From positions 1 to 63,288 of the IMG/VR virus record IMGVR_UViG_3300027833_001748: a stretch of DNA of 63,288 bases; one strand, given 5' to 3'. Below the pieces are notes generated by a model, which saw only the letters and a list, made by a program, of their open reading frames with translations, made no database searches and had not been told where the DNA came from. Shown here piece by piece: positions 2,250 to 31,313 of this stretch. The DNA is from a virus. Made by a program: the position numbers and the translations under genes. How positions within the stretch are numbered: position 1 is the stretch's first letter; each line of letters opens with the position of its first letter.

Positions 2250-2256
2250 AGAGTAT

Positions 2257-2261
2257 CCTCC
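2257..2261 (-). promoter_or_regulatory. Shine-Dalgarno GGAGG that fixes the TTG start of gp47
   Basis: On the minus strand GGAGG ends 7 nt before the TTG codon at 2249-2247. The protein would begin MFKKAAVFTD, which matches the usual short lead-in to the first phosphoesterase motif. This supports TTG as a real, rare start. Confidence 0.7.
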
Positions 2262-2276
2262 ATATATACATGTTAT

Positions 2277-2305
2277 AGTATATATTAATTATTAACACCT
2301 GTCAA
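2277..2305 (-). promoter_or_regulatory. sigma70-like promoter upstream of gp47
   Basis: On the minus strand TTGACA (2305-2300) is separated by exactly 17 nt from TATACT (2282-2277), close to the bacterial consensus. It lies in the short gp55-gp47 gap and could drive gp47-gp46 separately from gp55. Confidence 0.75.
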
Positions 2306-2306
2306 C

Positions 2307-3155: not shown

Positions 3156-3179
3156 CGGTTTCTCCTATAGTTAACTTAT

Positions 3180-3208
3180 ATTATAATATACTATGTTAAT
3201 TTTGTCAA
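3180..3208 (-). promoter_or_regulatory. consensus sigma70-like promoter upstream of gp55
   Basis: On the minus strand TTGACA (3208-3203), a 17-nt spacer and TATAAT (3185-3180) match the bacterial consensus at every position. It lies 25 nt upstream of the gp55 start and would fire early with host polymerase. Confidence 0.85.
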
Positions 3209-3215
3209 CTAAATA
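3209..3215 (+). promoter_or_regulatory. putative late promoter CTAAATA for the baseplate block
   Basis: CTAAATA lies 24 nt before the ATG at 3240 and directly abuts the -35 box of the divergent gp55 promoter. The TAAATA core fits the gp55-dependent late element of T4-like phages (TATAAATA in T4, relaxed in marine relatives). Confidence 0.6.
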
Positions 3216-3239
3216 GTAGTGTAGGAGTGAAAATAAATT

Positions 3240-11281: not shown

Positions 11282-11716
11282 ATGAGCCAATTAGAAAAAA
11301 ATTTATATAAACGAGTAACTGTACAGCAACCTGTGCAAACAGCTAATACAGGTAGAAAATACAGAGGTTTTTCAACTATTGCAGACGCTAAAAGTTTTAG
11401 TGTTTACGACTTTGAGCTCATTAAACAAGACTTAATTAACCATTTTCATATCCGCCAAACAGAAAAACTAAGCGATCCTACGTTTGGTACTATTATTTGG
11501 GATATGCTCTACGAACCATTTACAGTTGATGTACAAGAAGCAATTATTGAAGATGTAACTAAAATTATCAATTACGATCCTAGAATCAAAGCAGATAATA
11601 TTGTAATTGATACTTATGAGCAAGGCATCCAAGTTGATTGTACTATAAGTGTTCTTCCATTTGGAATAACGGATCAATTGCGGTTCAAATTTGATAAAGA
11701 AAACGGACTTTTATAA
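11282..11716 (+). CDS. 25: gp25-like baseplate wedge subunit
   Basis: 144 residues. The core shows DFELIKQDLINHFHIRQTEK, then DPTFGTIIWDMLYEPF and EAIIEDVTKIINYDPRI. This is the GPW/gp25 family pattern, including the conserved acidic/aromatic stretch around the EPF. gp25 is the wedge component that helps prime sheath polymerisation and is conserved from T4 to type VI secretion (TssE). Start chosen at ATG 11282, with AAGGGG 10 nt upstream. The gene sits between the gp5-like and gp6-like genes. Confidence 0.9.
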   Translation: MSQLEKNLYKRVTVQQPVQTANTGRKYRGFSTIADAKSFSVYDFELIKQDLINHFHIRQTEKLSDPTFGTIIWDMLYEPFTVDVQEAIIEDVTKIINYDPRIKADNIVIDTYEQGIQVDCTISVLPFGITDQLRFKFDKENGLL

Positions 11717-11779: not shown

Positions 11780-14700
11780 ATGTCTGCAAATGATAGACAG
11801 TCAAGGTTATTAGTAGCTGAGGACTGGAAAAGAATTTACCAATCATTCCGTAACGCTGATTTTCAAAGTTATGACTTTGATAATTTACGCCGTACGATGA
11901 TCAATTACCTACGTCAAAATTATCCAGAAGATTTTAATGATTATATTGAATCGAGTGAATATCTTGCGTTAATTGATATGATTGCTTTCCTTGGGCAAAA
12001 CCTATCATTCCGTATTGATTTAAATGCACGTGAAAACTTCCTTGAAACAGCAGAACGCAGAGAAAGTGTACTACGTCTAGCACGTATGTTATCATATAAC
12101 CCAAGACGTAATCAAGCAGCAAATGGTCTACTTAAATTTGATACAATCAAAACTACAGAAAATCTTCTAGATTCCAATGGGTTAAATTTAGCAGGACTTA
12201 CAATAAAATGGAATGATCAAACAAATTCATCTTATTTTGAGCAGTTTGTTAAAATTCTAAATTCAGCATTACCACTATCAAACTCAATTGGCAATCCTTT
12301 AAAGTCTGCATTAATTGCAGATGTACAAACACAAAAATATAGATTAAATGCTTCTAATACTGGACAAGCAATTTACCCGTTTACTAAAAGAGTTGAAGGC
12401 GTAAGCACCCGTTTTGAAGTAGTAAGTACTGATATAACTGGCGAAAGTATTTTAGAAGAAGCACCATTGCCGGGTAATAGCCCAGCATTTTTATTCCGTG
12501 ATGACGGATCCGGTGCCGGCAGTGCTAACACTGGTTTCTTTATGCATTTCCGTCAAGGTAAATTAGAAACAGGTAACTTTAATGTTGCAAATCCGACACC
12601 AAATCAGTCAGTACAGATTGATGCTGAAAACATTAATGATAGTGATATTTGGTTATTTGCTCTAAACAGTGCAGGATTTGAAAGTAATGAATGGACTAAA
12701 ATTGATGCTGTAGAAGGTAACAATGTTATCTACAATAGTTTGTTTAATAAAACTAGAGATGTATTTGCAGTAACAACACGTATTGGTGATAGAATTAACT
12801 TAGTGTTTAGTGACGGTGTATTTGGTAATTTACCAGCAGGAAACTTTAGATCATATTATAGAACTAGTAATAATATGCGTAGTGTAATTACTCCAAGTGC
12901 AATTAATACAGTAAGTATTGATATTCCTTATCAATCAAGAAACGGTTCGCAACAAACTCTTACTGTTGGACTTAAATTAAACTACACAGTTAGTAATGGT
13001 GCACCTGCAGAAACTAATACAGAAATTAAACAAAATGCTCCAGCAACATATTATACACAAAATAGATTAGTTACAGGCGAAGATTACAATATTGGACCTC
13101 TTGCAATTAGTCAAAATATTATTAAAACTAAAAGTTCAAATAGAATTTCAAGCGGTATCAGTAGATTCTTTGATCTAAAAGATGCTAGTGGAAAATATTC
13201 AAACACTAGTTTGTTTGCAGATGACGGAGTAATCTACAAAGAAGAATTTACTGAAAAACAGACATTTACATTCAATACTCAAACAGATATTGAAGGTGTT
13301 ATATACAATACTATTGAAAGTATTTTAGGCAATATTAATTCACAAAATTTCTATCTTGCAAAATATCCTAAAATTATTGTTAGTGACCTTAATGCAACAT
13401 GGACACAATCAGCTACAAGTACAAACCAAACATTAGGTTTGTTTAATGATATTGATAGTAATGCATATACTGTAGGGACGTTTACTGCTAATAGTTTAAG
13501 ATTATTAGAAGCAGGATCAATGTTGAAATTTGTTGCACCTGCTGGCAAACATTTTATGCCAAGCGGTATATTAATGGATGATGGTACCATCGGTGACCAT
13601 TTAGGTAAGACAAGTTACAAATGGTGCAAAGTTATATCTGTAACCGGCAACGGTACAATAATTGACGAAGCTGGATTAGCACCAATTGTGTTAAATGATG
13701 TTATACCGACAGGTGCTATATTAGAACAAATTGTGCCAAACTTTTCTAGAGCATTAATTAACGATATTAAAATAGAATTAATTGACCAAACATTTGAATA
13801 TAAAGATTTTGCTCTTAGATATGATCAATATGACAGACAGTGGAAAATGGTATTAGCAGAAGATATTAATACACTTAATAATTTTGCCACAGGTAAAGCA
13901 GGCGATAATACAGGTGAAAATCTAGATGCAAGTTGGATGTTATACTTTAAGACTGATGGCGAAAAATATACAATAACATATCGTAATTTACGCTATGTAA
14001 TGGAAAGTGCAGATGAAATTAGATTCTTCTTTGATGCTGCTGATAAAATTTATGATCCAGCGACTGGACAAATTGTTAGAGATAAAATCAATATTTTAAA
14101 CATTAACCGTAAACCAGGTGAGCTATCACCGTTCACAAGAGATTTTGGATGGACAATTACAGATGCATATAGAGATTCAGAAGGTTATTTAGACAGCCGT
14201 AAAATACAAGTTCAATTTATTGATCTTGACGATGATGGCATAGTTGACGATCCAACAATATTTGAACAAATTGTTGGTGAAGAAGATGCTACTATTGATA
14301 CAGAAGATAAACTAATATTTCAAAAGAAATATACAACCACAGACGGCGTAGAAGATTTTAAATATTTTTCAAATCCTATTACTAATACTGTTCCAGAAAT
14401 AGTTATAGTTCAAAACGAAGCTGCAATTGTACCTTATAGTTCACGTTTAGAAGGCCAAATATTTTACTTAATTGACGAAGACATTTTTAGAAAATTAAAT
14501 AAAGCACTAAACAATACAACAATCAATACTGATTATAAAGCCTACTTTGGTCGTGCGGATCTAAAATTCCATTATACGCATGTTGCAGATAGTGGTTATA
14601 GAATTGATCCAAGTGCAAGTAATATTATAGATACTTACATATTAACTAAAACTTATGATACACAAGTTAAACAATATATTGCAGGATCAATTAATGTTAA

Positions 14701-15322
14701 GCCAAAACCACCTAGCAACGACGAATTGTTTAGAAGTTACGGATCAGAAATAAACAAAATTAAAAGTTTAAGTGACGAATTAATATATCATCCTGTAAAG
14801 TATAAAATTTTATTTGGTGATAAAGCACCAGCAGATTTACAAGTTAAATTTAAAATTGTTAAAAATACTAATATGGTTATTAATGATAATGAGCTCAAAT
14901 CTAATATTATTGAAGCTATTAATAAATTCTTTGATATTGAAAACTGGGACTTTGGAGAAACTTTTTACTTCCAAGAACTTAGTGCCTATATCATAAACCA
15001 GCTGTCTCCAAAACTGGTAAGTATACTAATAGTACCGCGCCAAACTACACAATCGTTTGGTAGCTTATTTGAAATAAAGAGTGAACCAGATGAAATATTT
15101 GCAAGTGCTGCTAAAGTGACCGATATTGAAACAATTGATCAATTAACAGCAACTAACTTACAAGCAAGCGGCACAATAATAAATCAAGTGTCAACTAGTA
15201 CAATAGCAGGGATTACAAGCAGTGCATCAACAAGTACAAGTACAACAACTACCACTACACCAAGTAGTGGATCAAGTGGCAGTTCAAGCAGCAGTTCAAA
15301 CGGTGGAGGCTATAGTTACTAA
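11780..15322 (+). CDS. 6: gp6-like baseplate wedge subunit with extended Ser/Thr-rich tail
   Basis: 1180 residues, nearly twice T4 gp6 (about 660). The N-terminus is diagnostic: FDNLRRTMINYLRQNYPEDF, then SSEYLALIDMIAFLGQNLSF and RIDLNARENFLETAERRESV, as in the gp6/gpJ (TssF-like) wedge family. The middle is beta-rich, and residues about 1030-1100 contain APADLQVKFKIVKN and IEAINKFFDIENWDFGETFY, the conserved J-like C-terminal fold. The final 50 residues are a Ser/Thr/Gly low-complexity tail ending GGGYSY. gp6 forms the ring linking baseplate wedges and triggers sheath contraction. The next gene begins in the stop codon (TAATG). Confidence 0.88.
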   Translation: MSANDRQSRLLVAEDWKRIYQSFRNADFQSYDFDNLRRTMINYLRQNYPEDFNDYIESSEYLALIDMIAFLGQNLSFRIDLNARENFLETAERRESVLRLARMLSYNPRRNQAANGLLKFDTIKTTENLLDSNGLNLAGLTIKWNDQTNSSYFEQFVKILNSALPLSNSIGNPLKSALIADVQTQKYRLNASNTGQAIYPFTKRVEGVSTRFEVVSTDITGESILEEAPLPGNSPAFLFRDDGSGAGSANTGFFMHFRQGKLETGNFNVANPTPNQSVQIDAENINDSDIWLFALNSAGFESNEWTKIDAVEGNNVIYNSLFNKTRDVFAVTTRIGDRINLVFSDGVFGNLPAGNFRSYYRTSNNMRSVITPSAINTVSIDIPYQSRNGSQQTLTVGLKLNYTVSNGAPAETNTEIKQNAPATYYTQNRLVTGEDYNIGPLAISQNIIKTKSSNRISSGISRFFDLKDASGKYSNTSLFADDGVIYKEEFTEKQTFTFNTQTDIEGVIYNTIESILGNINSQNFYLAKYPKIIVSDLNATWTQSATSTNQTLGLFNDIDSNAYTVGTFTANSLRLLEAGSMLKFVAPAGKHFMPSGILMDDGTIGDHLGKTSYKWCKVISVTGNGTIIDEAGLAPIVLNDVIPTGAILEQIVPNFSRALINDIKIELIDQTFEYKDFALRYDQYDRQWKMVLAEDINTLNNFATGKAGDNTGENLDASWMLYFKTDGEKYTITYRNLRYVMESADEIRFFFDAADKIYDPATGQIVRDKINILNINRKPGELSPFTRDFGWTITDAYRDSEGYLDSRKIQVQFIDLDDDGIVDDPTIFEQIVGEEDATIDTEDKLIFQKKYTTTDGVEDFKYFSNPITNTVPEIVIVQNEAAIVPYSSRLEGQIFYLIDEDIFRKLNKALNNTTINTDYKAYFGRADLKFHYTHVADSGYRIDPSASNIIDTYILTKTYDTQVKQYIAGSINVKPKPPSNDELFRSYGSEINKIKSLSDELIYHPVKYKILFGDKAPADLQVKFKIVKNTNMVINDNELKSNIIEAINKFFDIENWDFGETFYFQELSAYIINQLSPKLVSILIVPRQTTQSFGSLFEIKSEPDEIFASAAKVTDIETIDQLTATNLQASGTIINQVSTSTIAGITSSASTSTSTTTTTTPSSGSSGSSSSSSNGGGYSY

Positions 15323-18300
15323 TGGCTAAGAATGATCAAAACGAAAGTGCATTGCCAGTACCGGGGCAAAATAATAAAATTACATCAAGTGATTTTTTAC
15401 CTAAGTTCTTTAGAACACAGGCTAACAAAAAGTTTTTACAAGGTACACTTGATCAACTTATACAACCCGGCGTTGCTGAAAAGATTAATGGATATTATGG
15501 TAGAACAACTGCTAAAGCATTTAAAACTACAGACAATTATGTAAATGATGTAACAGCAGATAGAACTAATTATCAATTAGAGCCTTCTACTGTTATTAAA
15601 GATGTATACAACAACGTAACTTTTTATAAAGATTATAATGATTATGTTGGACAATTAAATGTATTTGGAGCAAACACTTCTAACCATAGTAGACTAAACG
15701 GTCAAGAAACATATGCATGGAACCCAAATATTGATTGGGATAAATTTGTAAACTTTCGTGAATATTACTGGATGCCAAATGGTCCTATTAGTATTCCTGT
15801 AAGAGGACAAAGCAGAGAAGTTGTTAGTACATATACTGTTACAACTGAAGACCAAGGCGATAATATTGCTTATGTATTTAATGATGGATTAACACGCAAT
15901 CCTAATTTAAAACTATACCGTGGACAAACATACCGCTTTGAAATTAATGCTCCTGGACACCCAATGGCAATTGCTATTAGTAGAACATTTACTCCTGGCA
16001 GTGCAATTTTAACAGCAGGTACACAAGGACTTAGAGCAAGTGGATTATTTGATGCAGTATTATACGGCAACGAATATGACCAAGGTGAATTTATTATTCT
16101 TCCAAGTGGCGGCAGTGTTACTTTTGCAGATGACGATAATGTTTCAACATTATATCCAGACGGAATTCGTAAGTTAGGTGAAGAAGGCGAAGAAGTAGCA
16201 ATTGCTTATATTGAAAAAGGCACTATTGAATTTACTATTCCTGTTAATGCACCTGACAGATTATATTATATTAGTAAGAATGCAGTAGATACTAGTGGTC
16301 AAATTAGAATCTATGACATTGAAGAAAATGCATTCCTAGATGTTGGTGAAGACATTTTAGGTAAAAAAACATACAAAAGTGCTAACGGCGTAGAATTATC
16401 AAATGGAATGAAAATTAAGTTCCAGGGCGATGTATTACCTAATGATTATGAACAAAATGATTGGTATGTAGAAGGCGTTGGAGATAAGATTAAATTAATT
16501 AAAGATAAAAATTTAATTATCCCAGCTGCATATAGTGATACAAAACGTATTGCATTTGATAGTGATAGTTTTGATACATTACCATTCTCAGATGCTACAG
16601 CAAATGCAACAAACAAAGATTACATTGTTGTTAATAGAGCATCTCCTGATAGAAATGCTTGGAGTCGTTATAACAGATGGCACCATAAAGATGTAATTCA
16701 AAAAAGTTTTGAACTTAACCATATACCGGTAGTAGTTGACGAGTCAACTAGAGCTAAACGTCCTATTATTGAATTTGAAGCAGGACTAAAATTAGATAAC
16801 TTTGGTGCTATTGCTAAACAAGATGTTGATTTAGTAGATACATTTACTAAAGACGTCTTTAGTACAATTGAAGGTCAAATTGGTTATAACATTGATGGTA
16901 TTAATCTAGCAGATAATATGCGTATCTTGTTTACAGCAGATACTGACGCATTAGTTAGTGGTAAAATTTATCAAGTTAAATTTGTTAAAATTGCAAACAA
17001 CAGACAGATTAGTTTAATTGAAACTACAGATACATTACCAATTGATTTAGAAACAGTATTAGTTACACAGGGTGTAAAAAATGCAGGTAAAAGTTATCAT
17101 TACCACGGTGATAAATGGACAGCAGCACAAGAAAAAACTGCACGTAACCAAGCACCGTCATTTGAAGTTTTTGACTCCAATACAAATAGTTTTAGTGATA
17201 TTGCATTTTATCCGTCAACAACATTTAAAGGTACTAAGTTATTTTCATATGCAGAAGGTGAAGGTACTGTAGATACTGAATTAGGTTTTCCATTAGCTTA
17301 TAAGTCTATTGAAAACTCGGGTGATATTGTTTTTGATTTTAATTTATTAAATGATACATTTACATACCAAAGTGAAACTGAGTTATTTTCACAAAGTATT
17401 TGTAGCGGATATTTAAAGAAATATTCAACACTTACAAAGTTTTCATATGTAAACGGTTTTAGTAGCACTCCGTCAAATAGTAAACAGTTTGTTATACAAG
17501 AATACGCAGCAACAGAAATTGAATTGCAAAAATTTAAAATTGATGTTTATGAAAACTCAAGTTCTGTAACTGATTTAAAAGTTGTTGTTTTTGTTAATAA
17601 TAAATTAAAGTTAATTGATACTGATTATACAATTGATAAAACTGCACAAGATGCTGTTGTTGTATTTAATACAGCATTAGAAGCAAATGATGTTGTTAAA
17701 ATTAAAACAGATTCTAAAACTAACAAAAATAAAAATGGATACTATGAATTTCCATATAACTTAGAACGCAATCCGTTAAATGACGATGTTAATCAATTTA
17801 CATTAGGCGAAGTAATTGACCACGTTGATAGTATGTTGGAAGATATACCAGGTTATACTGGTGAATACTTAGGTATAAGTAACTTGCGTGATTTAGGAGA
17901 TTTAGATCGCTTTGGTAAAAGATTTGTAAAACATAGTGGACCAATTAACTTACCATTGTACCATACTACAAATAAGTCATATAATATTGTAAAAGCAATA
18001 TCTTATTCACAAAAAGAATATTCAAGATATAAGAAAACATTTTTAGATACTGCTGCTAATTTAGGCTACGATGGCCCTACAAAGGCACACGTAGATCTTG
18101 TTATAAAAACTATCAATAGAGATAAAATAAAATCACAGCCGTTTTACTTCTCGGATATGATTGCAACTGGAGCATCTAACAAAATTGAATATACTGTTCT
18201 TGATGCAAGAACAACTGAATATCCAATTACTGATAATTTTAATTTATCAACACTAACATCACAAAGTGTAATTGTTTATTTAAATGGTGTGCAGTTAGTA

Positions 18301-21300
18301 CACCAAAAAGATTACAACTTCAATATTGCAGGATATGTTTCAATTGATGCTAACCAAGTTGAAAATGATAAAATTGAAATCCACGAGTATGCAAATACTG
18401 ACGGAAGTTTTATTGCTCCAACACCAACTAAATTAGGACTATATCCAAAGTATTATCCTGAACTAACAATAGATGATACTGTATTAGGTAAAGAGCCGGA
18501 AACATTTGGACCGTTTAAGATTTATGGACAAGATGATATCACTGGAAATAGAGGTTGGTTTTATCCTGTATACACAACTAAAAGTGCAGCAGGTACAGGG
18601 ACACTTTCGACATCACATACATTTACAGGATTTAATAAATTATTTTATATTCCTGTAGCAGATTCAACACTTGGTGGTATTGACGACATTGAAGTAGATG
18701 AATATCCAATTGGTGTTGCATTTATTAAAGGACATGATGGTAGCTATACTAGAGCATATCAAGACTTTAGAGATGAGTTATTATTAGAACTTGAAAAAAG
18801 AATATTTAATAATATTAAAGTAGAATACTCATCTGATAGATTAAATGTTGATACATTTACCGGCGGTGAATTTAGAGTTAATGAATTCTCTAAAGCTGAA
18901 GTAGATAACACATTGTTAGGAAATTTCCAAAGATGGTTAATAGAAAATTTAAATAATCAAACATATACTAATAACACATTTTATGACAGGACTAATAATT
19001 GGTCATTTAATTATGCAGATACTACATCACCAGATGGTAATACTAATCCAGGCTTCTGGAGAGGTATGTATGTTAGAGCATTTGACACAGATCGTCCACA
19101 TAGTCATCCTTGGGAAATGTTAGGAATAACATCTAAGCCAAATTGGTGGAATAAAGTTTATGGACCAGCACCGTATACAGGTGACAATTTAGTACTTTGG
19201 AAAGACCTTGAACAAGGAAAAATTGCAGACCCAACTAATACACGTATTGATCTTAACTATTCTCGCCCTGGTCTAACTAGCTTTATTCCAGTTGATAGTA
19301 ATGGTAAACTTTTATCACCATTAGATAGTAGATATGCAAAAAACTTTGATATAAGAAATGCAACTAGAAACTTTGCATTTGGAGATCATGCACCGATTGA
19401 AAATGCATGGCGTAGAAGTTCAGATTATCCTTTTGCAATATTAAATGCAATGTTGCTAAACAAGCCTGCAAAAACAATGAGCTTAGGTTTTGATGTTTCA
19501 AGAATTAAGAAAAATTTATCAAATCAATGGGTAGATGTAGATACAAATAAACCTATTGTTATTAAAGACCTAACATTACCAAATACTTTTGATGCTGCTA
19601 CAAGAACATCAACAGCTGGACTTGTAAACTACATTTACAACTTAACAGCAAGCGATATATTAACAGTATACAATGCTTACAAATCAGATTTATCTGCAAT
19701 ATCAAACCAAATAGGTATTAAAATTGCAGGATTTACAAGCAAAGAAAAATTTAATTTAATACTAGATAGTAGATCTCCGACACAGTCGTTAACACAAGAC
19801 GGCATATTTGTACCACAGGAAAATTATCAAGTATTTCTAAATACAAGTAGCCCAAATGAACTAGCAGTTTACAGCGGAATAGTTATAGAACGTGCTGAAC
19901 TAGGTTATATAATACGAGGTTATAATTTAGAAAAACCATACTTTGAATATTATGAAGCACTTGAAGGATCAACAGCAAGTACAGTAACAGTAGGCGGCAT
20001 TTCAGAAAAAGTAGTTCCGTGGGATACTAATAAAGATTACCTAAGCGGCGAAGTAATTATGCATAATAATGTATATTATAGAGTTATTAATTCGTTTAAA
20101 AGTAGTGTAGTTTTTGAAACAGATGACATAGTTAAATTACCAAACTTACCTTTAACCGGCGGCAGAACTGCTCAGTTTAAGAAGGATTTTGATAATAAAC
20201 TTAGAACGTTACAGTATGGAACACGCATTAATTCAGCACAAGAAGTAGTTGATTTTATTTTAGGATATGACCAAAGACAAAAAGAAATAGGCTTTGAATT
20301 TAACAATGTTATTGAAGGTTCAAACGAAGTTGAAAATTGGAACCAAGCAGCAAAACAGTTTTTATTCTGGACAACACAAGGTTGGGCAAACAGCTCAATA
20401 ATTGCAGTAAGTCCGGCAGCTAACTTATTAGAGTTTAAAAGAGACTTTTATATAGTAGATAATATAAAAGATGAATTTTACGGTTATAGTATTTTTAAAG
20501 CAGACGGTAATTTCTTAGATTCAGATTTTAACAGTTTATTAAGAGACCAAAATAGTTTTGGTATTGAAACAGTAGGTACTGATGAAGGATTATATCATGC
20601 ATCGTTACCGTTAGTCCAAAAAGAACATGTTGTTTTAATTGACAATACTACAGATTTTAACGATACAATTTACAATCCAAGTACTGGGTATAGACAAGAA
20701 CGTATAAAAGTAAACGGATACAGATCAGATAATTGGAATGGTGGATTAAACATTCCTGGGTTTGTTTATGATGATGCAACATTTACTGATTGGACTGCTT
20801 GGAAAGATTATAGTATTGGCGATATTGTAAAATACAAACAATTTTATTATGTAGCAACATCTAATTCTACAGGTACACAAACTTTTAATAGTAACCTTTG
20901 GTATAGACTAAATGAAAAACCAACATCGGAACTAGTAACTAACTTTGATTATAGAATTTCACAGTTTACTGATTTTTATGATTTAGATTCAGATAGTTTT
21001 GATATAGAACAGCAAAAAATGGCTCAGCATTTAATAGGCTATCAAAAACGCCAGTACCTTGCTAATATTATTAATGATGACGTAAGTCAATTTAAGTTCT
21101 ATAGAGGCGCTATTGCAGATAAAGGTACAATGAATGTGTTTACTAAGTTGTTTGATGCACTTGGTAATACTGCTGATAATTTAGAATTTTATGAAGAATG
21201 GGCAATACAAGTTGGTCGTTTTGGTGCAGTTGATGATGTACAACAAGTAGAATATAACTTAAAACAAGATAAAATGCAAGAGTCTCCACAATCAGTTGAG

Positions 21301-24300
21301 CTTGTAAAAACTTTACCTACAACTAACTTTGATAAAATTTATAGAATACTTCCAAATGAAGTATTTGATAGGCCTGCAGATTATGATCATACACCGTTTC
21401 CGATTAAAACAGTAACAAATGAATATATTAGAACAGCAGGATATACTAATGAAGGCGATGTTGATTATATTGTTAGCAATTATATTGATTTAGCAGGAGT
21501 TAACACTAATAGAATTAGTTTGGGAGACACAATTTGGGTAACTGATACTGATAATAAATCATGGTCAGTAGAACAACTAATAAACGGTAATGCATTTGTA
21601 ACAAAAATTGATACACTTATAAATGAAGTAGCAGACAACGGCTTAAACTTAATAGAAATAACACTAACACAATGGGGTAACAATATTTGTGCAGTAGGCG
21701 AATACATTGGTGTCCGCGGAGCAGAAACTTACAGCCTTAATGGGATATATGAAGTTGACAGTATTAGTCTTGACAAGATAAAATTGCGTGTTCCAGCAGC
21801 TAACGATATTACTGATTACGATCAAGAAGAAGATGGAATCAGCAATTTTCCAGTAGCTAAATTAAGAACTATAAGAGTTTCTGATGTAACAGGAATAAAT
21901 TCAGCTACACAACAGGTAATTTACCCAAACCAAAAACTATGGATAGATAATTATGATACAGAATGGGGAGTATTAGAAAATAACCCTGTATATTTAAATG
22001 CTCAAACAATAGTTAATACATCAGAATATGATAGCACAGATCAAGGATTTAGTGATAGTTTTGCAGTAACAAAAAATAATAATAATATATTTGTTTCAGC
22101 AGCTAATGACCAAAACGGTAAAGTTTCAGTTTATAGAAGAACTAGAGAGCAATCAAACTTAATATTAGATCAAGAAATTACATATGTTAATGATAATTTA
22201 TTTAATATTACTGACATCGATTTTGGCAAAAGTATTAGTGTATCGCCTGATGGTGAGTATCTTGTTGCAGGCTTACCAAAAGCAAGTAACATTAAAACTA
22301 GACTAGCTTATAAAACAGACGCAAATGGCCAAAGTACATTTGACTTTCAACCAGATGCAGATTATGTTAAAAATGATATTGTAAGATATAGAGAAAGTTT
22401 ATGGAAAGTTAATAGAGCAATTTTACCAGAAATTGCACATCAACCATTTAGTACGTTTGACACATATATTAATATTGCTTCTCAAGCAGATGCTGATAGT
22501 ACATCACTAAACTTATTAGTTGCAGGTGACCCTGGACTACCAGGAAACACTACTTCGCACTTCTTAGTTCGTGCTCCAAGAGATATGTATATTGGTACAA
22601 AACCTAACGATACTGTTAACTTGTTTTGGAATCAACGTAGCTTTGCATATCCTACATTAGATAACTTCCTTCCGTTTAATGGCGATATACCTGAATTATC
22701 AGGTGCATTTATATCACAAGAACATACAATTGTTGAAAAGATTGATTCAATACTGTTTGTTGACACATTTATTACATTACCTGTAGTAGGCTCAGTTGTA
22801 ACAACAGATACTGGTACAGCAGTTGTAGCATATGTAAGTACACGCAGAGATAGCGCAGTACTATATATAAAAGATACAAATGGTGTATTTGATACTACAG
22901 GTGAATTGTTTATTAATGAACTTGACTTTATAGGGTTTTATACAGAAGAATCAACATATAGTGAAAGTACTGCAATAGCTGGATACTGGATGTTTAACAC
23001 AGGATTTAATTATTCAAATAATTCTGTATATTATGATTCAGGACGAGGCATGGTATATGCTGATGTTAAGCCACAGGGTTCGGTAAGAACTACAAACGAT
23101 TACTACAACATTCAAAACACAGTTGGTGCAATTGGCACATATGTTACTAATAAAAATAATTCAAGTTATATCGAAAACTTGTCTTATAGAGGAGATCCTA
23201 GCGCAGCTGATGCACAAGACGGTGTAGAAGCAGATCAGTTATCTAATAGATTTGTAGTTAGAGTTGGTGCAGAATATAGCGATACATTATCAGTAGGATA
23301 TGCTACTGAAATGAGAGTGTACAATCTTGATAATAGAGTAATTGATCTACCAGGTGCAGGTTTAAGTTATGATATTTTAAATAAGCAACAAACTATTGTT
23401 GATCTATGGGACGGCTATATTGATATGGAACTCAGTGAGTTTGATTTCCAAGGTTTTGCATTCCAGCCACAAGTCGGTGATGTTGTTGAAGATGTACAAA
23501 TACCCAAAGATGGACAAAATGGATTAGCGTTGACATCTATTAGCACTAGTACTGCTGAAGTTGTATATTTACAGCGTAACTTTAATAGTGTAAGACTTTA
23601 TGTAAAAATATTAACAGGTGACTGGTTAGAACAATCAAATATTGGACGCTTCAACATACGTAGATTAGCAAATACTAGTTTGCGTGGCGCAACTGATGTT
23701 GATCGTGTAGTTGGTGTTATAACTGATATTAATAACAGTATAGTATTAGGTACTTCAATAATTGGTAAATTATTAGTATTTGAACATAGTACTAACCTTC
23801 CTGTTGCTGAAGCACCTAGAATAATTGATGAAGAATATTGGTTCTTTGATGAAAATACTGAAGCTGGTATAGAACGTTTACCTAATCCACCATTTAGTTT
23901 AAACAAAGACTATACACAAATTTATAATATAAAAGCATCTGAATTCGGCACAGCAACAACATTAGCAAATGAAGGTGCCATTGCAATTTATAGAAGACTG
24001 CGTGACGGTACTTATAGATATCAGCATACATTAGTATCAGAATATAGAGCAGCAAATAGATTCTTTGGATCTAAAGTTGCAATAGTACAAACAGGAAATT
24101 ATTATACATTGCTAGTTGGCAGTGACAGTATTGTTAGTACAGGAGAAACTGACAGTACTGGAAGAAGAGCGCATCCGGGAACAATTGAAATATTCCGCCA
24201 TGGTACAAAAGCAACAGATAGTTACCAAGGTGAATATAAATTAACAGCATATGCAATTGGTGACGTTGTAACATATAAAGACGATTACTATATTTGCCGT

Positions 24301-27300
24301 AAAGCAACAACAGCAACACAAAATGTTATCTTAGATCCAATTTATTGGGATATGATTAGTTGGAAGCACGGAAAAGATTCTAACTACCGCGGCGTATTTG
24401 ATAATACATACACTTACAAAAAAGGTAATATTGTTGTACAAAATAATGCACTATGGGAAGCAACAACAAACATAGCAACATTAGCAGCAATACCAAGTTC
24501 TTCAAATACTTCTTGGAAATCTATAAGCACAAGTGTTGATTATGTTGGTTATTTGCCAAATCTAACTGCAAATGCGTTCTATGATGAGGATGTATTTGAT
24601 CCTATTGAAAACATATTAGAGTTTAGTAAGAGTTTTGATATTAGTGATGATGCACAAGTATTAGTTGTAACAAGTAAGCAAACACTTGTTTCAAGTACAG
24701 TGGATACAAAATTAGCAATTTACCGTGCAGTAGGAGATAAGTTCTTATTAGACCAAACAATAACGGCACCTGATAATATTACAGCATGGGCAGATAAAGT
24801 TTCACTAAATCCTGCAGGAACACAGATCGCAATTAGTGCAATGTTAGTAGATACTAACAAAGTAAATCAAGGGGTTGTTTATGTTTATACACAAACAAGC
24901 GGCACATTTACTTTAACACAGACACTAACACCACCGCAAAATGAAGAAAGCGAAGGTTTTGGCTTTGGATTAGACTTTGGCGCTGATAACTTAGTAGTAT
25001 CAAGTTTAAATGGCGACCAAACTATTCCAACAACATTCGATGTTACTGTATATGCAGATACACAAAATACACAAACTACGTTTGATAGAGATTTTACAAA
25101 CTTTAGAAATGTTAAACTTGACAAAGGAGTTGTTTATGTATATGAATCAGTTAGAGACAATTTAATATATGCAGAACAATTTGTATATCCATTAACACAA
25201 ACTACATTCGGCGAGAACATTTATACTAATGACAACCATGTGTATATTGGAATGCCAGATCATGTGTCGGGTGATTATAAAGGTCAAGTAATTGACTTTA
25301 GAAAAAACAAAGGCACACTTGCATGGCAGAAAAGTAGTGAAGGTATTACTCCTGTAGATATTACTAAAATACGCGGCGCAATGTTATACGACAAGCGTAA
25401 AAATAAAATTATAAGTTATATTGATTATATTGATCCAATACAAGGTAAAATTGCAGGACCAGCTGATCAAGAAATTACATTCAAAACACAATGGGATCCA
25501 GCAGTATATAACACAGGTAATCAAGCAGAAAGCTCAATAGATCCAAATAGAGTATGGACTGAAAAACATGTTGGTCAAATATGGTGGAATATTGGTAGTG
25601 CTAAATTTGCACATGCGTATCAAGGTTCAACTACTTTCCAAAAAAATAATTGGAACAAGCTAGTTGCTGGCGCAAGGATAGATGTTTTTGAATGGGTCGA
25701 GAGTGATATTATTCCTAGTATTTGGGATAGCATTACAGACACAGCTGAAGGATTACCAAAAGGTATAAGTGGAAAAAGTTTATTTAGTGATGCTAGATAT
25801 TCAACTAGAATAATCTACGACGAAGTAACAAAAACATTTAGTAACAAATATTACTTCTGGGTAGTTGATAAAGTTACTGTTCCTGTAATGGAAAACAGAA
25901 AACTAAGCATTAGAGATATTGCAGCATTAATTGAAAATCCTAGAACACAAGGATATCCATTTGTAAGTTTACTTTCTAAAGATAGATTTGTTCTTAACAA
26001 CTTTGATAGTTTTGTTGATAACGATGATTTAGTGTTGAATATTAAGTATGCAACTTCTACTAAAGAAATACAAAATGTTCACAGTCAGTATAAATTAATA
26101 TCCGACGGATTAGATACAAGTAAGCCTGATCCAGATATTGAGCGTAAATGGTTTGATAGTTTAATTGGTTTTGATAGTAACAATAGAATTGTTCCTGATC
26201 CAACAATTACAGTTAAAAATCGTTACGGAGTACAAAATCGTCCAAGACAAAGTATGTTTGTTAACAGATTTGAAGCATTAAAACAAACAATTGAAAGAAT
26301 TAACATAAATTTAACAACTCACCTTATAGTAGATGAGTACGATATTTCTAAGTTAACAATGCAAGATGCAGCACCAACATTGATATCTCGAGATTATGAT
26401 TTAGCAGTTGATACGCTTGCTGATTTATCTTTTGTTAGTACAAATAAAATTACTCCTGCTGTACTAACTCCGACTATTACTAATGGTAGAATTTCAAGAA
26501 TTAACATTACTAATTCAGGACGTGGATATAAAGTTGCTCCTAGCTTTAAAATTAATGGCGAAGGTAATGCAGCAGAATTTAATATTACTATTAATAATTT
26601 AGGACAAATTACATCAGCAGAAATTACAAATGCTGGCGAAGGATATAATTCAAATACTACAATAACTACAAGACCATTTACAGTATTAGTTAATACAGAT
26701 GAAACTATTCAAGACAAGTGGGCTTTATATTCATGGAATGGTAGTACTTGGTATAGAAAGAAACTACAAAGTTATAATGTAAACTTATATTGGAACTATC
26801 AAGATTGGTATGCTGAAGGGTATAACCAGTTCACAAATATTAGAGATACTATCGCAGGATCATACTTGTTACCAAGTTTAGATAACTCAATTAATGATAT
26901 TGTAAAAATTGAAAATGTTGGCTCGGGCGGTTGGTTGCTATTAAAGAAAACTGACGAACAGGAAACTGAGGACTATACAGTTAACTATGATACAATTGGC
27001 AGACAAAATGGTACAATTCAATTTAAAGATACACTATATGATTACAGTAAAAATACTGTAGGGTTTGATAACCGTAGTTTTGACAGTAACTTTTATGATA
27101 ATAATCCAAATGTTGAATTAAGAACAATACTTGAAACATTAAGAGATGACATACTTGTAAATGACTTAGAAGTTGAATACAACCAATTGTTTATGTCTGC
27201 GTTACGATATGTAATGTCAGAACAGCAGTCAGTTGATTGGATGTTTAAAACAAGTTTTGTAAAATCTAAGCACAACAGAGAGTCACTAAGCCAGTCAGAT

Positions 27301-30300
27301 ATAACATTTAATAATGATAACTTAGTAAGTTACCAAAACTTTGTTGAAGAATTTAAACCTTACTCAACAAAAATAAGAGAATTTATTAGTGAATATACTG
27401 TAATAGATCCTACAAATAGTAGTGTTAGTGATTTTGACTTACAGCCTTCATATAATAAATTAACTGATGTAATTGAAGCAAGCACAGCAGTTATTAAAGA
27501 TAATGAAATATCAAACCAAAATTTAGATACTGATAATTACCCACGTAAGAATTGGGCTAACAATCATGGTTATGAAGTAACTGAAATTAAATTAGGTGAT
27601 GGCGGCACAGGATATACTTTTGAACCAGTTATTAAATTAACCGGAGGCGGCGGCACTGGTGCCAAAGCAAAAGCATATTTAGGCTACGGAAAAATTACTA
27701 GTATTAAAGTAACATATCCCGGCAGTGGTTATACTACTGCACCAACAGTTGTTATATCAGGATCACAAACAGATGCAGGAACACCTGCAAAAGCAACAGC
27801 AGTAATTGGTAACGGTGTTGTAAGAAGTCCTAGCGTTAAAATTAAGTTTAACAGAATATCAGGAACATTTACTTTTGACACATTGGCAAAATCACAATCA
27901 TTCACTGGTACAGGATTTGAAAACAGATACTTCTTAGAATGGCCAATGGATTTAGATAAGAAGAATGTAAAAGTTTATGTAGATGGTATACTACAATTGC
28001 GTAGTAAATATACGTTTACTAATATTGATAATACTGATAAAACTTATACTAGACAACAAGGTAAAGTCTTATTTACTACACCTCCTAAATTAAATGCAGT
28101 TGTAAAAATAGATTATAATATACCTTTAAGTGTACTAAGTGCAGAGGATAGAATTAATTTTGCATACAATCCTATTGCAGGAATGTACGGTAAAGATTTA
28201 GCACAGTTAATGTCAGGTGTTGATTATGGCGGAGTTGAAATACGTAGTTTTGATTTTGCAGGCCCAGCAGGCTTTGATACTGCACCGTGGTATACAGATA
28301 CATGGGATACTTTTGATAACACATTTGAAGATGAAGTATTTACAGCAGACGGATCTACTATTGCAGTACAACTTAGCACTCCATTAGAAGATGGCGTAGT
28401 ATATAACTTATATAAAAATGGTGTAAGAATTGATGACCCTAACTTTAGTTTAGGCTCGGCAACAAATGCTTATGCTATTACAGATAGTATTACAGGCGAT
28501 GGTGTAGCTGATACAATTTATGTACAAGATTTAGGTATTACATTAAACGATAATGATATATTTGTTGTAAGAAAAACTACAAGTGATGGTAGTGTACAAC
28601 CTGATAATGAAAGTTATGACACTGCACTAACAGGCGGCGACCTAGCATACACATCGGCACGTGGTATAGCAGCAGAAGAAATTATTGTTGATGGTGATGG
28701 ATTTGTTACACCTACTACATCTAGTGGTCCTGAAGAAGTTGTTCCAGGACAAGTATTAGATACTTTAGATATTAAAGTGTTTACAAGAGATAGCGAAGGC
28801 CAGGGTATAATATCTTCTAGAAACTATATTATAAATTCACAAAATACATTTGAATTAGGAAATACACCTGCTAGTGCTGATTCAGTACTTGTAAAAGTTA
28901 ATAATGTTGTTTTAGCACAAACTGAATATACAATTGACTGGGCAGCACTTACTGTAACATTAAACACATTAGTAGTAGGTGCTGAACTTAGTATTGTATC
29001 AGTTAGTCAAGGCACACAAAATATATTAGACTTTGGAAAACTAATAGGTGACGGTTCAACAACAGTATATGAAACTACAGTTGATTGGGTAGAAACTGCA
29101 AGCGTTTATGCAAATGTAAACGGTGTGCAAAAAAGTATTGATACATTTAAATCAGACGTAACACCTAAAATGGTTATTAGATTTGAGGAAGCTGTACCAG
29201 ACACTGCAACTATATATTACACAGTATTTTCAGATAACACAAAAGTAAATTACAGTCAAATGTCTAAAAACACATTTACAGGTGATGGTTCGGCAACAGC
29301 GTTTACATTAACAAATGCTCCGTTGTATAGTATTCCGTCAGAACACAATGTAATAGTTAAAGTTAACAATCGTATTTTAAATGCAGGTTATAATATACAA
29401 TATACAATTCCTGAAAATAATCAACGAGAGTTTCCGTTAGAGATATTCCAAATACCAGCAGGCAGTTTAGATGTTTCTGATATGAAAGTATTCTTAAACG
29501 GCTTACTAATTACAACTCCATTAGATTGGCGTTTAGATGCTAACAACAGTAGTATAATATTAACAGATGATTCTGGTACACCGGGCGACTTACTTGAAAT
29601 GTATGTAATTACAGACGGTGATTATAGAATTGACGGAACATCAGTTACGTTTGATACAGCACCAGCAGATAATGCAGTTATAGAAATAATACAATTTACT
29701 AATCACGATTTAATTGGTATTGAACGTATAAATTACGAAGTTCTAACAAGAACTACACTAATACCTGAAGATGTTGATTATATTACATATCGTAGAACAA
29801 CAGTTGGTGAAATTAAGTTACGCACTCCGGCAGTAGATGCAGAGTATGTTTGGGTGAGTCTAAATGGCGAATTGTTATCACCAAGTGCAGACTATTATGT
29901 TACAGATGATAGAATGAAAGTTAGATTAGTTACACCGCCGGATGCTAACGATGTTATTGATATTATTCACTTTACTAAACCTGTAAATGTACCAAAGTTT
30001 AGCTACAGACAGTTTAAAGATATGCTTAATAGAACACACTTTAAGCGTATTGATGCATCAGCAGCCAAACTAGCACAACCATTAAATTACTACGATTTAC
30101 GAATTGAATTAGACCAGAGTGGTACTACATTATCAGAACCAAACAAAGGACAAAATTTACCAGGTGTAGTGTTTATTGAAGGTGAGCGTATTGAATACTT
30201 TGTAAAAGAAGGTACTACATTACGCCAGCTACGTAGAGGAACATTAGGAACTGGAGTTAAAGATACATATACAGTAGGTACTAAAGTCTTTGATCAAAAC

Positions 30301-30690
30301 ATAAGTAAGACTGTTCCATATAAAGATAGAACAATGGCATATAACACAACAGCAGACGGCACTACAACACAATTTGAAGTTAGCTATCCAGTAACATCAA
30401 TTAATGAAATTGAAGTGTTTGTAGGCGGTGTACGTATGCGTAAGACGGCATTAGAAGTGTTTGATCCTACTGTAGCGTTAGATAGCCCAGAAGGTGATAG
30501 CACAGTAGCAGCAGACTTTACGTTTGATGCAAATACAATTACGTTGCTTGCAACACCACAAGAAAATACAAGGATAACAGTAGTGAAAAAAGTAGGTCAA
30601 AGTTGGACAGAATCAGGAAAAACGCTTAGTGATACACAAAATAGCATTGCTAGATTCTTACGTGCAGGTACTTCTGAGCTACCTGAATAA
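15322..30690 (+). CDS. giant multidomain virion protein (5122 residues) in the gp7 position
   Basis: One uninterrupted 15.4-kb frame. The N-terminus (residues about 130-160: FVNFREYYWMPNGPISIPV) and a cupredoxin-like stretch near residue 200 (LYRGQTYRFEINAPGHPMAI) resemble large structural proteins of marine T4-like phages. Five short motifs of the carbohydrate-binding CBM5/12 kind lie near residues 1574, 1826, 2347, 2976 and 3030 (for example YSIGDIVKYKQFYYVA and YAIGDVVTYKDDYYICR). Between about 2240 and 3330 there are FG-GAP or propeller-like repeats (FGKSISVSPDGEYLVAG, FGENIYTNDNHVYIGMP). Glycine-tyrosine repeats follow at about 3730-4140 (GSGYTTAPTVVISG), then repeated V-x-VNG beta units, and GERIEYF with LRQLRRGTLGTG near 4955. 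Gene order gp25-gp6-this gene puts it where T4 has gp7. Homology to gp7 is not shown by anything I can see. It is probably a peripheral baseplate or adsorption component. Confidence 0.75.
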   Translation: MAKNDQNESALPVPGQNNKITSSDFLPKFFRTQANKKFLQGTLDQLIQPGVAEKINGYYGRTTAKAFKTTDNYVNDVTADRTNYQLEPSTVIKDVYNNVTFYKDYNDYVGQLNVFGANTSNHSRLNGQETYAWNPNIDWDKFVNFREYYWMPNGPISIPVRGQSREVVSTYTVTTEDQGDNIAYVFNDGLTRNPNLKLYRGQTYRFEINAPGHPMAIAISRTFTPGSAILTAGTQGLRASGLFDAVLYGNEYDQGEFIILPSGGSVTFADDDNVSTLYPDGIRKLGEEGEEVAIAYIEKGTIEFTIPVNAPDRLYYISKNAVDTSGQIRIYDIEENAFLDVGEDILGKKTYKSANGVELSNGMKIKFQGDVLPNDYEQNDWYVEGVGDKIKLIKDKNLIIPAAYSDTKRIAFDSDSFDTLPFSDATANATNKDYIVVNRASPDRNAWSRYNRWHHKDVIQKSFELNHIPVVVDESTRAKRPIIEFEAGLKLDNFGAIAKQDVDLVDTFTKDVFSTIEGQIGYNIDGINLADNMRILFTADTDALVSGKIYQVKFVKIANNRQISLIETTDTLPIDLETVLVTQGVKNAGKSYHYHGDKWTAAQEKTARNQAPSFEVFDSNTNSFSDIAFYPSTTFKGTKLFSYAEGEGTVDTELGFPLAYKSIENSGDIVFDFNLLNDTFTYQSETELFSQSICSGYLKKYSTLTKFSYVNGFSSTPSNSKQFVIQEYAATEIELQKFKIDVYENSSSVTDLKVVVFVNNKLKLIDTDYTIDKTAQDAVVVFNTALEANDVVKIKTDSKTNKNKNGYYEFPYNLERNPLNDDVNQFTLGEVIDHVDSMLEDIPGYTGEYLGISNLRDLGDLDRFGKRFVKHSGPINLPLYHTTNKSYNIVKAISYSQKEYSRYKKTFLDTAANLGYDGPTKAHVDLVIKTINRDKIKSQPFYFSDMIATGASNKIEYTVLDARTTEYPITDNFNLSTLTSQSVIVYLNGVQLVHQKDYNFNIAGYVSIDANQVENDKIEIHEYANTDGSFIAPTPTKLGLYPKYYPELTIDDTVLGKEPETFGPFKIYGQDDITGNRGWFYPVYTTKSAAGTGTLSTSHTFTGFNKLFYIPVADSTLGGIDDIEVDEYPIGVAFIKGHDGSYTRAYQDFRDELLLELEKRIFNNIKVEYSSDRLNVDTFTGGEFRVNEFSKAEVDNTLLGNFQRWLIENLNNQTYTNNTFYDRTNNWSFNYADTTSPDGNTNPGFWRGMYVRAFDTDRPHSHPWEMLGITSKPNWWNKVYGPAPYTGDNLVLWKDLEQGKIADPTNTRIDLNYSRPGLTSFIPVDSNGKLLSPLDSRYAKNFDIRNATRNFAFGDHAPIENAWRRSSDYPFAILNAMLLNKPAKTMSLGFDVSRIKKNLSNQWVDVDTNKPIVIKDLTLPNTFDAATRTSTAGLVNYIYNLTASDILTVYNAYKSDLSAISNQIGIKIAGFTSKEKFNLILDSRSPTQSLTQDGIFVPQENYQVFLNTSSPNELAVYSGIVIERAELGYIIRGYNLEKPYFEYYEALEGSTASTVTVGGISEKVVPWDTNKDYLSGEVIMHNNVYYRVINSFKSSVVFETDDIVKLPNLPLTGGRTAQFKKDFDNKLRTLQYGTRINSAQEVVDFILGYDQRQKEIGFEFNNVIEGSNEVENWNQAAKQFLFWTTQGWANSSIIAVSPAANLLEFKRDFYIVDNIKDEFYGYSIFKADGNFLDSDFNSLLRDQNSFGIETVGTDEGLYHASLPLVQKEHVVLIDNTTDFNDTIYNPSTGYRQERIKVNGYRSDNWNGGLNIPGFVYDDATFTDWTAWKDYSIGDIVKYKQFYYVATSNSTGTQTFNSNLWYRLNEKPTSELVTNFDYRISQFTDFYDLDSDSFDIEQQKMAQHLIGYQKRQYLANIINDDVSQFKFYRGAIADKGTMNVFTKLFDALGNTADNLEFYEEWAIQVGRFGAVDDVQQVEYNLKQDKMQESPQSVELVKTLPTTNFDKIYRILPNEVFDRPADYDHTPFPIKTVTNEYIRTAGYTNEGDVDYIVSNYIDLAGVNTNRISLGDTIWVTDTDNKSWSVEQLINGNAFVTKIDTLINEVADNGLNLIEITLTQWGNNICAVGEYIGVRGAETYSLNGIYEVDSISLDKIKLRVPAANDITDYDQEEDGISNFPVAKLRTIRVSDVTGINSATQQVIYPNQKLWIDNYDTEWGVLENNPVYLNAQTIVNTSEYDSTDQGFSDSFAVTKNNNNIFVSAANDQNGKVSVYRRTREQSNLILDQEITYVNDNLFNITDIDFGKSISVSPDGEYLVAGLPKASNIKTRLAYKTDANGQSTFDFQPDADYVKNDIVRYRESLWKVNRAILPEIAHQPFSTFDTYINIASQADADSTSLNLLVAGDPGLPGNTTSHFLVRAPRDMYIGTKPNDTVNLFWNQRSFAYPTLDNFLPFNGDIPELSGAFISQEHTIVEKIDSILFVDTFITLPVVGSVVTTDTGTAVVAYVSTRRDSAVLYIKDTNGVFDTTGELFINELDFIGFYTEESTYSESTAIAGYWMFNTGFNYSNNSVYYDSGRGMVYADVKPQGSVRTTNDYYNIQNTVGAIGTYVTNKNNSSYIENLSYRGDPSAADAQDGVEADQLSNRFVVRVGAEYSDTLSVGYATEMRVYNLDNRVIDLPGAGLSYDILNKQQTIVDLWDGYIDMELSEFDFQGFAFQPQVGDVVEDVQIPKDGQNGLALTSISTSTAEVVYLQRNFNSVRLYVKILTGDWLEQSNIGRFNIRRLANTSLRGATDVDRVVGVITDINNSIVLGTSIIGKLLVFEHSTNLPVAEAPRIIDEEYWFFDENTEAGIERLPNPPFSLNKDYTQIYNIKASEFGTATTLANEGAIAIYRRLRDGTYRYQHTLVSEYRAANRFFGSKVAIVQTGNYYTLLVGSDSIVSTGETDSTGRRAHPGTIEIFRHGTKATDSYQGEYKLTAYAIGDVVTYKDDYYICRKATTATQNVILDPIYWDMISWKHGKDSNYRGVFDNTYTYKKGNIVVQNNALWEATTNIATLAAIPSSSNTSWKSISTSVDYVGYLPNLTANAFYDEDVFDPIENILEFSKSFDISDDAQVLVVTSKQTLVSSTVDTKLAIYRAVGDKFLLDQTITAPDNITAWADKVSLNPAGTQIAISAMLVDTNKVNQGVVYVYTQTSGTFTLTQTLTPPQNEESEGFGFGLDFGADNLVVSSLNGDQTIPTTFDVTVYADTQNTQTTFDRDFTNFRNVKLDKGVVYVYESVRDNLIYAEQFVYPLTQTTFGENIYTNDNHVYIGMPDHVSGDYKGQVIDFRKNKGTLAWQKSSEGITPVDITKIRGAMLYDKRKNKIISYIDYIDPIQGKIAGPADQEITFKTQWDPAVYNTGNQAESSIDPNRVWTEKHVGQIWWNIGSAKFAHAYQGSTTFQKNNWNKLVAGARIDVFEWVESDIIPSIWDSITDTAEGLPKGISGKSLFSDARYSTRIIYDEVTKTFSNKYYFWVVDKVTVPVMENRKLSIRDIAALIENPRTQGYPFVSLLSKDRFVLNNFDSFVDNDDLVLNIKYATSTKEIQNVHSQYKLISDGLDTSKPDPDIERKWFDSLIGFDSNNRIVPDPTITVKNRYGVQNRPRQSMFVNRFEALKQTIERININLTTHLIVDEYDISKLTMQDAAPTLISRDYDLAVDTLADLSFVSTNKITPAVLTPTITNGRISRINITNSGRGYKVAPSFKINGEGNAAEFNITINNLGQITSAEITNAGEGYNSNTTITTRPFTVLVNTDETIQDKWALYSWNGSTWYRKKLQSYNVNLYWNYQDWYAEGYNQFTNIRDTIAGSYLLPSLDNSINDIVKIENVGSGGWLLLKKTDEQETEDYTVNYDTIGRQNGTIQFKDTLYDYSKNTVGFDNRSFDSNFYDNNPNVELRTILETLRDDILVNDLEVEYNQLFMSALRYVMSEQQSVDWMFKTSFVKSKHNRESLSQSDITFNNDNLVSYQNFVEEFKPYSTKIREFISEYTVIDPTNSSVSDFDLQPSYNKLTDVIEASTAVIKDNEISNQNLDTDNYPRKNWANNHGYEVTEIKLGDGGTGYTFEPVIKLTGGGGTGAKAKAYLGYGKITSIKVTYPGSGYTTAPTVVISGSQTDAGTPAKATAVIGNGVVRSPSVKIKFNRISGTFTFDTLAKSQSFTGTGFENRYFLEWPMDLDKKNVKVYVDGILQLRSKYTFTNIDNTDKTYTRQQGKVLFTTPPKLNAVVKIDYNIPLSVLSAEDRINFAYNPIAGMYGKDLAQLMSGVDYGGVEIRSFDFAGPAGFDTAPWYTDTWDTFDNTFEDEVFTADGSTIAVQLSTPLEDGVVYNLYKNGVRIDDPNFSLGSATNAYAITDSITGDGVADTIYVQDLGITLNDNDIFVVRKTTSDGSVQPDNESYDTALTGGDLAYTSARGIAAEEIIVDGDGFVTPTTSSGPEEVVPGQVLDTLDIKVFTRDSEGQGIISSRNYIINSQNTFELGNTPASADSVLVKVNNVVLAQTEYTIDWAALTVTLNTLVVGAELSIVSVSQGTQNILDFGKLIGDGSTTVYETTVDWVETASVYANVNGVQKSIDTFKSDVTPKMVIRFEEAVPDTATIYYTVFSDNTKVNYSQMSKNTFTGDGSATAFTLTNAPLYSIPSEHNVIVKVNNRILNAGYNIQYTIPENNQREFPLEIFQIPAGSLDVSDMKVFLNGLLITTPLDWRLDANNSSIILTDDSGTPGDLLEMYVITDGDYRIDGTSVTFDTAPADNAVIEIIQFTNHDLIGIERINYEVLTRTTLIPEDVDYITYRRTTVGEIKLRTPAVDAEYVWVSLNGELLSPSADYYVTDDRMKVRLVTPPDANDVIDIIHFTKPVNVPKFSYRQFKDMLNRTHFKRIDASAAKLAQPLNYYDLRIELDQSGTTLSEPNKGQNLPGVVFIEGERIEYFVKEGTTLRQLRRGTLGTGVKDTYTVGTKVFDQNISKTVPYKDRTMAYNTTADGTTTQFEVSYPVTSINEIEVFVGGVRMRKTALEVFDPTVALDSPEGDSTVAADFTFDANTITLLATPQENTRITVVKKVGQSWTESGKTLSDTQNSIARFLRAGTSELPE

Positions 30691-30710: not shown

Positions 30711-31313
30711 ATGAGCGAACACATGCAAGATAAAAACGGAGTACTAGTGCAAGGGCATATTAAGATATTTGACCCTGAATCACAAAAAGTATACATTGAT
30801 AAACGTAATGCAATTCACTACGAAAATATGAGTATTGCAATGGCTGAAAGTTTAGCAAATGCTGGCCAAGGTTATATTTACGAAATGAGCTTTGGTAATG
30901 GTGGCACAAGTGTTGACCCAACAGGTATTATTACATATCTAACACCAAACAGCACAGGCACAAATGCTAGTTTATACAACCAAACCTATACTAAGGTTGT
31001 TGATGACAGAAGCGTAAACAATACAGATCCTGCACGTAACAAATTAGAAACAAGACACGTTGCTGGCACAAATTATACAGATATTGTTGTTAGTTGCTTA
31101 CTTGATTATGGTGAACCAAATGGACAAGATGCATTTGATACTGCAAGTGCAACTGATAGCCCATATGTATTTGATGAATTAGGCTTGCGTAGTTATAGCT
31201 CAAGTGGTACAGGACGCCTAATTACACATGTTATTTTTCACCCAGTACAAAAGTCACTTAACAGATTAATACAAATTGACTATACTGTGCGTGTACAGAG
31301 TTTAGCAGGGTAA
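30711..31313 (+). CDS. virion structural protein, baseplate or fibre-attachment type
   Basis: 200 residues, beta-rich, with no signal peptide or membrane segment. The N-terminus reads GHIKIFDPESQKVYIDKRNA, then IHYENMSIAMAESLANAGQG and YEMSFGNGGTSVDPTG. The C-terminus has YVFDELGLRSYSS and LITHVIFHPVQKSLNRLIQI. These patterns occur in small structural proteins of T4-like marine phages located between the wedge and the fibres. It follows its own late promoter and heads the fibre cluster, so a role as connector or adaptor between baseplate and fibres is reasonable. I cannot equate it with gp8, gp9 or gp10. Confidence 0.5.
   Translation: MSEHMQDKNGVLVQGHIKIFDPESQKVYIDKRNAIHYENMSIAMAESLANAGQGYIYEMSFGNGGTSVDPTGIITYLTPNSTGTNASLYNQTYTKVVDDRSVNNTDPARNKLETRHVAGTNYTDIVVSCLLDYGEPNGQDAFDTASATDSPYVFDELGLRSYSSSGTGRLITHVIFHPVQKSLNRLIQIDYTVRVQSLAG

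Follow-up and report, generated by a model that had tools for sequence, protein, structure and literature searches.

The open reading frame at 15322-30690 (+) of the window (the whole stretch of DNA analysed, 63,288 nucleotides of record IMGVR_UViG_3300027833_001748) is a genuine coding frame and not an artefact. It encodes a 5122-residue protein that belongs to a known, uncharacterised family of virion proteins, of which it is a more elaborate new variant. The explanation that we favour, and hold to be probable on balance, is that of a wedge-position baseplate protein whose arm, composed of a propeller and carbohydrate-binding modules (CBM5/12), binds cell-surface glycans. The giant ORF and its neighbours are as follows.

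8790..11267 (+): baseplate hub / tail lysozyme-like protein (PHROG 13211)
11282..11716 (+): gp25-like sheath initiator / wedge protein (PHROG 261, 43)
11780..15322 (+): gp6-like baseplate wedge gene, 1180 aa (PHROG 10646, E=1e-296; PHROG 219, E=8e-25)
15322..30690 (+): giant ORF, 5122 aa, single open frame (PHROG 10938 match; dN/dS)
30711..31313 (+): conserved 200-aa protein (PHROG 11259)
31324..33378 (+): tail fibre / collar protein, downstream of the 200-aa protein

The giant frame and its family

The ATG start of the giant ORF overlaps, in the sequence TAATG, the stop codon of the gp6-like gene before it, and is followed by an uninterrupted frame of 5122 codons. Against three relatives (58-90% amino-acid identity per block), dN/dS ranges from 0.08 to 0.29 in all ten blocks of ~512 residues, and the entire ORF is therefore coding and constrained by purifying selection. 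A frame error as the source of the ORF is ruled out, since the 40 complete homologues are all single ORFs, of 3326-5343 aa with a median of about 4930. In the only split homologue (IMGVR_UViG_3300000405_000132), the frame breaks near residue 1117 into two ORFs that overlap, probably as a result of a contig frameshift. The single uninterrupted frame described in the earlier note is thus borne out by the sequence, by the constraint in every block and by the homologues. The earlier note also called its size extreme for a phage protein, which is not the case inside its own family: 12 of the 40 complete homologues reach or exceed 5122 aa, the longest having 5343.

Relatives of the gene were identified at 558 loci or more in viral contigs. 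Three segments of the giant protein match PHROG 10938, annotated "virion structural protein" (E=1.1e-157, 7.7e-70 and 1.3e-67), the named members of which are RaK2 ORF070, PBECO4 gp538, CBB_236, PA5oct gp355 and Atu_ph07 gp180. In cultured jumbo phages that belong to the RaK2-like group or are akin to it (Atu_ph07, Phosso, PA5oct, RaK2, XaC1, PBECO4 and Vibrio 2.275.O), homologues are located directly after gp6. CBB_236 (10,023 nt, 3340 aa from its coordinates) adjoins the gp6-like CBB_237 and was detected in CBB particles with 21 unique peptides, amounting to 7.72% coverage (PMC5259590), while the record of PA5oct gp355 is marked ESI-MS/MS. The earlier designation of the giant as a virion protein is supported through homologues, the mass spectrometry being that of these two distant homologues only. 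These very long virion proteins are common, yet we found no description of their function in literature searches and selected papers.

Core, insert and predicted binding modules

Comparison with the shortest relatives delineates a core formed by residues 1-160, 341-1010, 1131-2010 and 3361-4080. Along the protein, the following features are distinguished.

15322..15801 (+): N-terminal core, residues 1-160 (occupancy 0.95-1.0 in complete homologues; lengths kept down to RaK2)
15820..16326 (+): cupredoxin-fold segment, residues 167-335 (AF2; VIA-align Z about 10, rmsd 2.1-3.2)
16342..18351 (+): core, residues 341-1010 (homologue comparison; AF2)
18712..21351 (+): core, residues 1131-2010, with a near-invariant PWEMLG..KP.WW..YG motif (homologue comparison; AF2)
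20002..20151 (+): CBM5/12-like module 1, residues 1561-1610 (model match; rmsd 1.2-1.3 over 45 residues to chitin deacetylase CBMs)
20773..20922 (+): CBM5/12-like module 2, residues 1818-1867 (model match; structural match to 8fqc_Q1)
20917..21246 (+): helical segment, residues 1866-1975, with near-invariant FYxGxIxxKG[T/S] (alignment; low pLDDT alone)
21994..25326 (+): residues 2225-3335, FG-GAP-like propeller region (six matches to blades, separated by large inserts)
22342..22458 (+): CBM5/12-like module 3, residues 2341-2379 (model match)
22762..22926 (+): residues 2481-2535, weakly similar to domain V of T4 gp7 (PF21427; Pfam E=0.0035 in 1 of 26 members)
24220..24369 (+): CBM5/12-like module 4, residues 2967-3016 (model match)
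24379..24528 (+): CBM5/12-like module 5, residues 3020-3069 (model match)
25402..27561 (+): core, residues 3361-4080 (shared with RaK2-like members, in which it spans about 640 aa)
27574..27831 (+): Gly-Tyr (GxGY) repeat near residue 4134 (many phage tail proteins carry comparable units)
27919..30687 (+): C-terminal beta region, variable and carrying V-N-G units (homologue occupancy; motif positions)

The RaK2-like proteins of PHROG 10938 share with the giant a colinear core and the position after gp6, and are the forms detected by mass spectrometry in CBB and PA5oct virions. They differ by their size (3326-4555 aa) and, in RaK2, XaC1 and PBECO4, by the lack of detected CBM or propeller modules. 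The main size difference resides between the core halves, where ~211 aa in these three phages face the 1350 aa of the giant (residues 2011-3360). As the core is common to forms with and without adhesion modules, sequence comparison indicates that it is most likely structural. Its helical segment 1866-1975 is strongly conserved, yet displays low pLDDT when predicted alone with AF2; a stretch that folds together with partners might behave in this way, and the segment is a candidate for the contact with gp6.

Searches for structural kin of the core returned little. The core profile retrieved only a chitinase CBM among solved structures, and the helical segment one unrelated weak match; a Pfam search of the latter yielded no consistent family. 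Apart from the CBM, Foldseek and VIA-align analysis of the second AF2 model retrieved beta-barrels alone, at middling scores (Z of about 8 at most); these are treated as a common arrangement and not as specific kinship. "YHYH domain" proteins from uncultured phages of the Caudovirales (UniProt A0A6J5T0D1 among others) match residues 1131-2250 in fold and sequence (28-36% identity); they are themselves predicted models only, with no function assigned.

The segment 167-335 owes its cupredoxin assignment to resemblance of its AF2 model with nitrite reductases and laccases. The giant protein possesses only three Cys residues, at positions 694, 2123 and 2992; the segment thus lacks a Cys ligand and cannot hold a type-1 copper. 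It probably serves as a beta-sandwich domain for spacing or binding, and is almost missing from RaK2-like members, which have 2 aa there. GxGY motifs occur at residues 3733 and 4134, and V-[N/G]-[N/G] motifs at residues 756, 4524, 4679 and 5032.

The insert 2011-3360 harbors the six predicted propeller blades and CBMs 3-5, while CBMs 1 and 2 precede it in the core. The CBM5/12 assignment (Pfam PF02839) scores 47.6 bits against a gathering cut-off of 26.2, whereas FG-GAP_2 (PF14312) reaches 20 bits in the window protein, below its cut-off of 23. Among 26 scanned members, CBM5/12 was found in all and FG-GAP_2 in 24 at E<=0.01 (best E 2.2e-18). The number of CBMs per complete metagenomic homologue ranges from 2 to 6 and that of blades from 4 to 7, and the insert varies among homologues in both length and content. 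The same models, built from the clade of the giant, detected neither CBM nor blade in RaK2-like members. A tblastn search of the 1350-aa insert against 50,697 phage records gave no match at E<1e-3. In Atu_ph07 and Phosso, the equivalent interval is about 1515 aa long and may be a diverged counterpart.

In other proteins, CBM5/12 modules bind chitin-like and related glycans. Together with the variability of the insert, this makes host-surface binding by avidity the best reading of the arm, which would bind cell-surface glycans. The modules resemble in fold and sequence those of chitinases and of phage tail proteins, as illustrated by the match of module 2 to the baseplate receptor-binding complex of Agrobacterium phage Milano (8fqc_Q1; Z 7.7, rmsd 1.6 over 45 residues). 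What sets the giant apart is the presence of five copies of these predicted binding modules along one protein, three of them between propeller blades. Against this reading, CBM5/12-like folds in phage tails could be mere connectors. All the modules listed in the earlier note (cupredoxin, five CBM5/12, FG-GAP-like blades, Gly-Tyr and VNG units) are located in the giant, and its suggestion of a modular, possibly adsorptive protein is supported, as a probable reading, by the cupredoxin fold and by the distribution of the CBM5/12 and FG-GAP_2 modules across the family.

The position after gp6 and the wedge question

The gp6-like gene lies upstream of the giant at all 81 testable loci; the gp6 match ends 240 bases or less from the giant start in 78 of them and further away in the remaining three. 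The 200-aa protein follows the giant at 40 of 43 testable loci. The giant thereby occupies the slot of T4 gp7 and P2 gpI, gene 7 following gene 6 in T4. The genes of gp31, gp32 and the two fibres (gp33 and gp34) are numbered consecutively in phage A-1(L), whose wedge has the composition (gp31)2-gp32 (PMC10966104).

Several observations concern the surroundings of the giant. The gp6-like protein of the window is enlarged too, with 1180 aa against 660 in T4, and the gene at the gp6-like position of Salicola phage SCTP-2 is 9291 nt long. A 1014-aa protein (4395-7439, PHROG 11190) is encoded between the gp53-like and hub genes, and its motif FSGLYQV...FTQTLKMIR recalls hub-type proteins. The tail fibre encoded at 35333-36808 exhibits a Peptidase_G2 domain (intramolecular chaperone autoproteolysis; E=1.1e-5). 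Two radical SAM proteins are encoded at 43149-44534 and 57816-59210, the second with a SPASM domain, and radical SAM genes are also present near the giant in Atu_ph07 and Phosso. The product of 49053-50636 matches an APH-type phosphotransferase (E=1.6e-5).

The earlier note had suggested an adsorption structure rather than a wedge subunit. This opposition is not supported: the location of the giant after gp6, within a hub-gp25-gp6 cluster, suits a protein that sits in the wedge position and bears adhesion modules as well. Its place is that of an outer wedge subunit, whose role it may share. With T4 gp7 it shares its gene position directly after gp6, but gp7 is 1032 aa long and displays no detectable profile similarity. 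Comparison by hhalign of T4-type gp7 with every tile of the giant's family gave probabilities of 1.8% or less, and T4 gp6, 8, 9, 10, 11 and 12 gave nothing above chance (at most 2.1%); as a positive control, T4 gp6 matched the gp6 family of the window with E=5.6e-4. Neither AF2 model showed a recognisable wedge fold, with the reservation that the prediction of the helical segment is poor. Owing to this absence of sequence similarity, the giant is not filed as gp7. Two other proteins were considered for this role: the 200-aa protein encoded downstream was discarded as the actual gpI/gp7, since it has neither a Pfam match nor similarity to gp7, and the 1014-aa protein as gp7, since it has no profile match.

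A true T4 gp7 homologue that has diverged past sequence detection is possible, if rather doubtful. The gene position after gp6 speaks for it, as do the domain V matches at residues 2481-2535, which recur in many members in a permissive search, and a conserved KG[T/S] helix that resembles by eye the "STKGI" helix of gp7. However, no profile match is significant, and the domain V match is not significant for the window protein and falls outside the conserved core. As such homology is compatible with the favoured explanation, the weights given to the readings overlap in part.

It is unlikely that the giant is a tail-associated long fibre or whisker adjoining the baseplate genes but located outside the wedge. 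Its beta-rich, modular build with CBM, propeller and V-N-G units would suit such a structure, and the RaK2-like phage CBB possesses tail whiskers of unknown genes (PMC5259590). The core, however, is also conserved in the RaK2-like members, in which neither CBM nor propeller was detected, so that the shared role would not be adhesion, and the invariable presence of gp6 upstream also argues against a fibre. Furthermore, the whisker gene was sought by the CBB authors among genes absent from GAP32 (PMC5259590), whereas CBB_236 has a GAP32 homologue.

Cleavage of a polyprotein into several virion proteins at assembly appears improbable. T4 wedge proteins are not known to undergo processing, and this counts against it together with the conservation of a single ORF in all complete homologues, even if the great length, the distinct modules and the prohead protease present in a relative (PMC3622015) point in its direction. 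That the giant is associated with the head or internal to the virion, as the category of PHROG 10938 ("head and packaging") would have it, is very improbable, given the hub, gp25 and gp6 genes to the left, the fibre gene to the right, and CBM and propeller modules that make little sense inside a head.

A proposed glycan-binding arm at the baseplate

In the favoured explanation, the core (residues 1-2010 and 3361-4080) would assemble with gp6 into the wedge, and the clade-specific insert 2011-3360 would form a beta-propeller of FG-GAP-like type, its blades interspersed with CBM5/12 modules. If six copies ring the baseplate, about thirty weak glycan-binding modules would face the cell, and their avidity would hold the phage before dedicated fibres trigger contraction.

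More tentatively, the insertion of a CBM-studded propeller may have turned the wedge-position baseplate protein of a large group of uncultured, jumbo-type phages into an arm for multivalent receptor binding. If this is true, the baseplate of these phages would capture cell-surface glycans directly, and not through fibres alone. The contrast between a ~3,300-residue form, in which adhesion modules were not detected, and a ~5,000-residue form that possesses them separates the structural core from the host-facing insert, and opens a direct test of baseplate-borne adsorption.
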